Shown here one piece after another: positions 11,143 to 32,995 of a stretch of 64,000 bases of DNA. Both the position numbers and the translations under genes were made by a program. The DNA is from Marinilabilia salmonicolor (lineage in GTDB: Bacteria > Bacteroidota > Bacteroidia > Bacteroidales > Marinilabiliaceae): positions 1-64,000 of the forward strand of contig NZ_PVTS01000007.1 in NCBI RefSeq assembly GCF_003003035.1, read 5' to 3'. The notes under the pieces were generated by a model. It was not told where the DNA came from and did no database searches. It worked only from the letters and a program-made list of their open reading frames with translations. How positions within the stretch are numbered: position 1 is the first letter of the stretch; the number at the start of each line of letters is the position of its first letter.

Positions 11143-11163
11143 GGAATTTTCTTTTAAAAAATT

Positions 11164-11193
11164 TGTACACCCGAATTTACAGGCTTATATTTG
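11164..11193 (+). promoter_or_regulatory. Bacteroidota-type promoter of small RNA copy 1
   Basis: TTG at 11164-11166, then 19 nt, then TATATTTG at 11186-11193 (consensus TAnnTTTG). The same elements with identical spacing precede the second copy at 32905-32934. Transcription would begin near 11199. Confidence 0.65.
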
Positions 11194-11198
11194 CCCTC

Positions 11199-11251
11199 GG
11201 GTTAGGGTTAAGGTCAAAGGTCTGTCGGAATGCCGGCAGGCCTTTCTTTTT
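11199..11251 (+). ncRNA. Candidate small RNA, copy 1
   Basis: Starts with GGGTTAGGGTTAAGGT. A terminator follows: arms 11216-11228 and 11233-11245 pair over 13 bp (two G-U pairs), with an AATG loop and then TTTCTTTTT. The whole unit, including its promoter, is repeated at 32939-32995 with only a few changes between the G-rich leader and the hairpin. No reading frame fits inside. It is not part of the neighbouring genes, which have their own signals. It could act by base pairing or protein binding; the family is not recognised. Confidence 0.6.
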
Positions 11252-32793: not shown

Positions 32794-32904
32794 GGATGCT
32801 GATAATTAATTGTTTGGGCAATAAAGTCAGTGAATGCATAGATGTATTATGAATGTAATACAATATTTAACTATCGGATAAGTAGGAAAAGTGTAAAAAA
32901 TATT

Positions 32905-32934
32905 TTGCCATTTCCATTTACTCCATTATATTTG
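32905..32934 (+). promoter_or_regulatory. Promoter of small RNA copy 2
   Basis: TTG at 32905-32907, 19 nt, TATATTTG at 32927-32934: the same elements and spacing as at 11164-11193, although the spacer sequence differs. Confidence 0.65.
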
Positions 32935-32938
32935 CATC

Positions 32939-32995
32939 GGGTTAGGGTTAAGGTTTGAAAGGTCTGTCGGAATGCCGGCAGGCCTTTCTTTTTTT
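32939..32995 (+). ncRNA. Candidate small RNA, copy 2
   Basis: Begins GGGTTAGGGTTAAGGTTTG and ends in the same terminator as copy 1: arms 32958-32970 and 32975-32987, AATG loop, then a T-rich tail. It is nearly identical to 11199-11251 across the body, with three extra bases between leader and hairpin. It lies in an intergenic region and does not read into the SulP gene, because the terminator precedes it. Confidence 0.6.

Follow-up and report, generated by a model that had tools for sequence, protein, structure and literature searches.

Structure of the two copies

A stretch of 64,000 nucleotides from Marinilabilia salmonicolor, referred to here as the window, carries two short units of the same build, and the question arises whether they are genes for a small RNA and, if so, to which kind of RNA they belong. 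A sequence-only reading had described both as a promoter followed by a common leader, a 13-bp hairpin with an AATG loop and a T tract. Comparison of the two copies (Table 1) bears this out: the 15-nt leader is identical in both, and a 30-nt hairpin is found without a single change at 11216-11245 and 32958-32987, its shared stem comprising 13 bp, including two G.U pairs, and its loop being AATG. In dinucleotide-shuffled versions of the window, the leader with up to two mismatches was matched 0.07 times on average, with two matches in 1 of 100 shuffles, and the hairpin with up to three mismatches 0.00 times. The leader can be read as three near-identical hexamers in tandem (GGGTTA-GGGTTA-AGGTT), and the inferred RNAs would measure about 54 nt for copy 1 and about 57 nt for copy 2. 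Sigma-A-type boxes, TTTG and TATATTTG, are kept in both copies while the promoter spacers and flanks differ, just as had been stated; only the "identical 19-nt" promoter spacing has to be corrected, since the boxes are 20 nt apart in copy 1 but 19 nt apart in copy 2. The distance from TATATTTG to the GGG of the leader is 5 nt and 4 nt, respectively. A search of the window for tRNAs revealed none, and a scan with Rfam at gathering cut-offs reached no family.

Table 1. Coordinates in the window of the two units, their parts and the gene in front of copy 1.
Feature	Position	Strand	Basis or remark
SRAP (SOS response associated peptidase) gene, Pfam PF02586	10537..11142	+	directly upstream of copy 1
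Copy 1, whole unit	11162-11251	+	read in sequence
Copy 1, -33 box TTTG	11162..11165	+	sequence and promoter test
Copy 1, -7 box TATATTTG	11186..11193	+	sequence and promoter test
Copy 1, leader GGGTTAGGGTTAAGG	11199..11213	+	inferred RNA 5' end at 11199 or 1 nt before
Copy 1, terminator hairpin	11216..11245	+	arms 11216-11228 / 11233-11245, loop AATG
Copy 1, T tract	11247..11251	+	sequence
Copy 2, whole unit	32904-32995	+	read in sequence
Copy 2, -33 box TTTG	32904..32907	+	sequence and promoter test
Copy 2, -7 box TATATTTG	32927..32934	+	sequence and promoter test
Copy 2, leader GGGTTAGGGTTAAGG	32939..32953	+	inferred RNA 5' end 32939
Copy 2, terminator hairpin, 14 bp, loop AATG	32957..32988	+	fold and pair counts
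Copy 2, T tract	32989..32995	+	sequence

Copies in the genome and in Marinilabiliaceae

Further copies elsewhere in the genome, for which a search had been proposed, do exist: the window's genome (G000) holds eight exact leaders, seven of them followed by a hairpin (the exception is L007), while the reversed-pattern control gave none. Allowing up to two mismatches, we obtained 19 matches against 15 for the reversed-pattern controls; it is thus the exact copies that make up the excess. Of the 11 inexact matches, L016 coincides in part with an exact copy, L011 and L014 have the appearance of good additional copies, and L012 looks decayed. A structural model built from 17 sequences with 14 pairs (R2) has 11 matches in this genome.

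Exact leaders were present at 62 places in 14 of the 61 genomes searched, all of them Marinilabiliaceae (the window's family) and spanning 7 of its 21 genera, with a reversed control of 0 in every genome; the Marinilabilia genome G004 has nine exact copies. They were absent from the 24 genomes of the order's other families among these 61. A scan of a named genome collection with GGGTTAGGGTTAAGGTTNRAA yielded 34 stretches, 30 of which came from Marinilabilia, Geofilum, Alkaliflexus, Alkalitalea, Natronoflexus and unclassified Marinilabiliaceae, the named genera being assigned to this family. Three others belong to one Bacteroidales MAG and the last (L088) to a Desulfobacteraceae MAG, where the promoter was missing by eye. 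The search for relatives with a covariance model, likewise proposed earlier, extended the range: within the family, R2 had matches in 51 of 71 genomes, spread over 18 of 21 genera. The invariance of the leader is partly a product of the exact search; in the five Marinilabilia genomes R2 found 49 matches, 33 of them with the exact leader, though R2 itself was made mostly from exact leaders. The 12-mer TTAACCCTAACC occurs at 43 places in these five genomes, and 36 of them are copies of the unit (33 exact with hairpin, three R2 matches); the remaining seven compare with nine in the reversed control. Viral contigs gave no match to the leader pattern. Literature searches returned no match to the exact leader string and nothing on topic for Marinilabilia and small RNA, neither of which proves absence from print.

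Two side observations concern particular copies. The eighth exact 15-mer, L007 (C14:147789-147803 of G000), sits between two genes that look phage-like by eye, and its opposite strand presents the exact leader complement 38 nt ahead of the start (ATG) of a gene for 176 aa; it is possibly a target site, or a chance match. A further class of copies is represented in all five Marinilabilia genomes (L014, L303, L305, L308, L310) by GGGTTAGG[GT]TTAAGTT, with TTTTGAACTTTT upstream and, in some, direct repeats of the ATGAATTAGATTTAC type.

Evidence for functional small RNA genes

Conservation of the promoter was assessed with the pattern TTG-N18..20-TAnnTTTG, lying 3-6 nt before the leader and scoring at least 8/9. 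It was kept in 50 of 54 distinct window-type copies with hairpin (L088 among the 54); shuffled upstream sequences averaged 0.455 and never exceeded 3. In the R2 stem, 98.7% of the cells are paired and both sides have changed in 9 of the 14 pairs, which none of 500 shuffles equalled. Neighbouring genes and their orientations vary, the next ORF lying on the opposite strand in 21 of 61 cases by crude ORF calls, and such changing contexts make the units look like free-standing small RNAs. Promoter, leader and hairpin conserved across genera, covariation in the stem and changing neighbours together speak for the earlier view of two copies of a functional small RNA gene, and we predict with great confidence that the units are real small RNA genes, presumably transcribed and functional.

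The changing neighbourhood also bears on the idea that the unit serves the following gene as an attenuator or as part of its 5' UTR. Some copies, copy 1 included, lie 75-200 nt upstream of an ORF on the same strand; since that ORF is so often on the other strand and changes its identity, the idea is largely refuted and appears highly improbable. An inert dispersed repeat or a fragment of a mobile element would account for the multiple copies, for the one decayed-looking copy (L012) and for two copies of the genome (L002 and L008) each standing behind a gene of the SRAP cluster. Copy 1 follows its SRAP gene at 56 nt, members of the cluster precede five copies by 42-57 nt in three Marinilabilia genomes (G000, G003, G004), and copy 2 is followed by a sulfate permease/STAS gene. 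A repeat lacking promoter conservation had been named as a finding that would overturn the small RNA reading; instead, the promoter is conserved with freely changed spacers, the stem changes are compensatory and neighbours recur across species, which leaves an inert element with next to no credibility.

Relation to FopS and GibS

The sequence-only reading had not recognised the family. At the cut-offs of Rfam this holds; followed through its leader, the family nevertheless points to the FopS and GibS small RNAs. FopS (RF04319) is described from Bacteroides thetaiotaomicron as a 14-member family with a single-stranded 5' seed and a terminator, sigma-ABfr promoters and the RRM protein RbpB as partner, highly conserved within Bacteroidaceae (PMC11697453). 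Like FopS, the window units are multi-copy and, by predicted folds and pair counts, consist of a single-stranded 5' stretch passing directly into an intrinsic terminator; the sigma-ABfr promoter TTTG / TAnnTTTG is that of the 50 copies above, the leader ends in UUAAGGUU as in FopS, and the genome encodes two RRM-1 (Rbp-type) proteins, at C6:240861 and C20:69742. In FopS the same TTTG stands 4 nt before GUG, where the Rfam model begins, and by analogy the window RNA would start at or beside the GGG. Unlike FopS, the window leader begins at this GGG, without UUUUUCAUGG and with UUAGGGUUAAGG in place of UUAGAUUUAAGG, and lacks the R1 seed with UUUUUCAU that is complementary to the start codon. 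The gathering score of 56 bits is not reached by the window copies either: for copy 2, FopS comes first by bits with 20.0 (E 0.27 for 111 bases), the alignment covering UUAG..UUAAGGUU, and McaS has the better E value, 0.091, being aligned to the hairpin.

GibS (RF04182) is reported to pair at mRNA start codons by a conserved, single-stranded 5' seed (PMC7366714), and the window units are likewise single-stranded at the 5' end, though GibS comprises about 145 nt with middle hairpins versus about 55 nt here. Its 142-nt model (gathering 115 bits) matched nothing in the window at gathering and, with the limit relaxed to E 10, still did not match copy 2; matches were confined to the other loci L180, L181 and L162, all under the cut-off. 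By description, paralogs sharing targets and maybe differing in control also recall Qrr, LhrC and the Cia-dependent sRNAs (PMC11697453), which belong to other phyla and have other partners.

A profile built only from sequence, using 25 CATA-type leaders of Marinilabiliaceae and no FopS sequence (R3), carried the comparison beyond the family. At E 0.001 it matched 68 of 393 genomes of the order, 6 inside and 62 outside Marinilabiliaceae. The order is, as we infer, Bacteroidales in the GTDB sense; NCBI places the taxon in Marinilabiliales. For the 25 loci listed from the order outside the family, the 70 nt from the leader start fold at <=-15.9 kcal/mol in all 22 with enough flank. Among 395 genomes of the class, some of the order included, nine matched genomes lay outside the order, and only two of the nine loci fold at <=-15.9 kcal/mol, the other seven having no comparable hairpin; taken alone, R3 is therefore not clean. 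Where R3 places its match, RF04319 identifies L181 as FopS with 60.7 bits (cut-off 56) and L180 falls just under the cut-off with 55.7 bits; ten more FopS matches fall on units with 28.5-35.2 bits (E 0.14-2.8) and singly prove nothing. The RF04319 model itself matched 87 of the 393 genomes, 75 above the cut-off. Of the six Marinilabiliaceae genomes searched with it, it detected only G005 (three matches, best E 6.5e-4; best unit 38.6 bits in a smaller search), and not the window's genome. A leader type ATTTTTTCATAGTTAAGGTTTAGGTTAA with terminator is also frequent in the order (L184, L187, L190-L194, L197, L198, L201); the five of these loci that were scanned (L184, L187, L191, L192, L193) stayed below every Rfam cut-off.

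Judged by leader sequence and general plan, the window units are likely relatives of FopS and GibS, probably a G-rich, shortened branch of this kind without the start-codon-pairing part. Homology to FopS rests on about 30 nt of leader, over which convergence on start-codon complementarity is possible. A separate family that is not FopS by descent and has converged on a similar leader would agree with the mere 20.0 bits of copy 2 and with the ease with which short leaders complementary to start regions can arise repeatedly, as in the seven of nine R3 loci outside the order without comparable hairpin. Against it stands a graded chain of leader sequences that joins the window type through class A2 and the tandem arrays to FopS; we consider such a convergence unlikely and infer common descent with FopS.

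Longer siblings and their promoters

Those divergent R2 matches that were read share one plan, a leader with TTCATA or CTCATA, a GGTTA-rich stretch and a terminator. CATAA/CATAG is complementary to a start codon embedded in TTATG/CTATG; FopS leaders read GTGTTTTTCATGGTATTAGATTTAAGGTTAA. In class A2, found at one locus in each of the five Marinilabilia genomes, the window leader follows TTTTCATAATTTT, and in the four genomes read further upstream a class A1 unit, TTCTTCATAAGTAAGGGTTTAGGTTAGG, precedes it by about 140 nt. Two more CATA-type units stand as a pair at C6:297009 of the window's genome, and this genome has the stretch UUUUCAUAA or CUCAUAG in L001 and L337, loci other than the window copies. 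In some genera the units form tandem arrays, L153 having five within 0.9 kb.

For 110 CATA-type units, picked by pattern and fold from all loci collected, Rfam FopS matches included, the promoter classes differed. The strict sigma-A pattern was found in 23 (shuffled mean 0.71), an ECF-like TGAAAC/TGTAAC/CGTAAC-N15..18-CG in 9 (0.055), two of which, L167 and L177, lie at odd places and are probably chance, and a sigma-54-like pattern in 7 (0.045); 71 matched none of the three. None of 13 class A2 copies has a sigma-A promoter at the window position. Near-perfect sigma-54 -24/-12 elements (TGGCAC-N5-TTGC) lie about 30-45 nt upstream of the leader in L149, L162, L182, L183 and L185, and L152, L153 and L161 are arrays of FopS-like units, some with an ECF-like TGAAAC/TGTAAC/CGTAAC-N16..17-CGTTA. 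The promoter classes hint at alternative sigma factors driving such sRNAs in Bacteroidota, for which the sigma-E sRNAs of enterobacteria offer a parallel. Sigma-54 -24/-12 and ECF CGT-box promoters have been described for Flavobacterium psychrophilum (PMC9723704).

Possible function of the leader

The reading that we favour somewhat is that of free-standing genes for trans-acting sRNAs of about 54-57 nt, a shortened G-rich FopS/GibS branch whose leader would act on mRNA starts. Each unit would give an RNA consisting of the single-stranded 5' leader (GGGUUAGGGUUAAGGUU) and the intrinsic terminator, made from a primary-sigma promoter (TTTG / TAnnTTTG). The leader, as the interaction element common to the paralogs, would contact C-rich or TAACC-type mRNA sequences close to where translation starts, one of the two RRM-1 proteins being the probable partner, and paralogs with different promoters would feed different signals into one output. 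Like FopS, the longer siblings with CAUAA in the same genome could cover start codons; the window type is without this part and would have to meet an mRNA, if it does so at all, at some other site.

Duplex energies of four leaders were compared between 30 susC and 296 background start regions of the window's genome, using those 30 of 56 susC matches for which the sequenced locus was retrieved; a matched control was limited to genes starting with ATG plus Lys/Arg (27 susC, 67 background). All p values are uncorrected and come from one genome with start codons picked by rule. Class A2, at first in the form of other genera, gave p 4e-7 unmatched and 0.00075 in the matched control, where A1 reached 0.046 and FopS 0.089; the window leader displayed no susC preference there (z 0.01 vs 0.30, p 0.13; repeat p 0.14). 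Repeated with the genome's own strings under the matched control, A2 still paired better with susC starts than with background (p 0.006) and A1 did not (p 0.146). For the 5' UTR alone, with A2 again in the form of other genera, p was 0.054 for the window leader, 0.088 for A2, 0.58 for A1 and 0.54 for FopS. Pairing with susC is thus weakly supported for one longer sibling, A2, and unsupported for the window type. Nor was TTAACCCT-N0..30-ATG enriched over its reversed control in G000 (70 vs 76), G001 (80 vs 104), G002 (48 vs 67) or G004 (77 vs 84), G003 (93 vs 81) being the sole genome above it.

This lack of signal for the window leader, together with its three near-identical tandem hexamers, the absent start-codon-pairing part and the two RRM-1 proteins, would also suit an RNA that pairs with no mRNA at all. 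Its GGGUUA-GGGUUA-AGGUU(A) repeats would bind an RRM-1 protein and, as a decoy, withdraw it by titration from mRNAs or from the longer CAUA-type sRNAs. In eukaryotes, RRM proteins classically bind UUAGGG. RbpB of B. thetaiotaomicron, on the other hand, is reported to prefer AU-rich RNA (PMC11697453), and the missing target signal rests on 326 start regions, a weak basis, so that we regard the decoy as rather doubtful. A still broader proposal, tentative at best, combines it with the longer siblings: an order-wide superfamily of "anti-start-codon" sRNAs, with FopS as one branch, promoters of three kinds or more (primary sigma, ECF-like TGAAAC-N16-CGTT, sigma-54-like TGGCAC-N5-TTGC) and tandem arrays in some genera, of which a beheaded form in Marinilabiliaceae would keep only the G-rich hexamers and act as an RRM decoy rather than antisense.

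The comparisons suggest a wider distribution of the FopS kind across the GTDB order, in forms below every Rfam cut-off and under promoters of different classes, and a lineage in which a form lacking the start-codon seed has multiplied. Between them, the two forms offer a natural experiment that could tell the part of the leader serving the mRNA from the part serving the RRM protein.

The best start-region matches, L290, L284 and L286, were read individually. L290 lies within an inverted repeat. At position 11974 of L286, on the minus strand, several TTAACC repeats that are complementary to the sRNA leader lie in the 5' region of a gene for a sigma-54 regulator, NtrC-like by eye.
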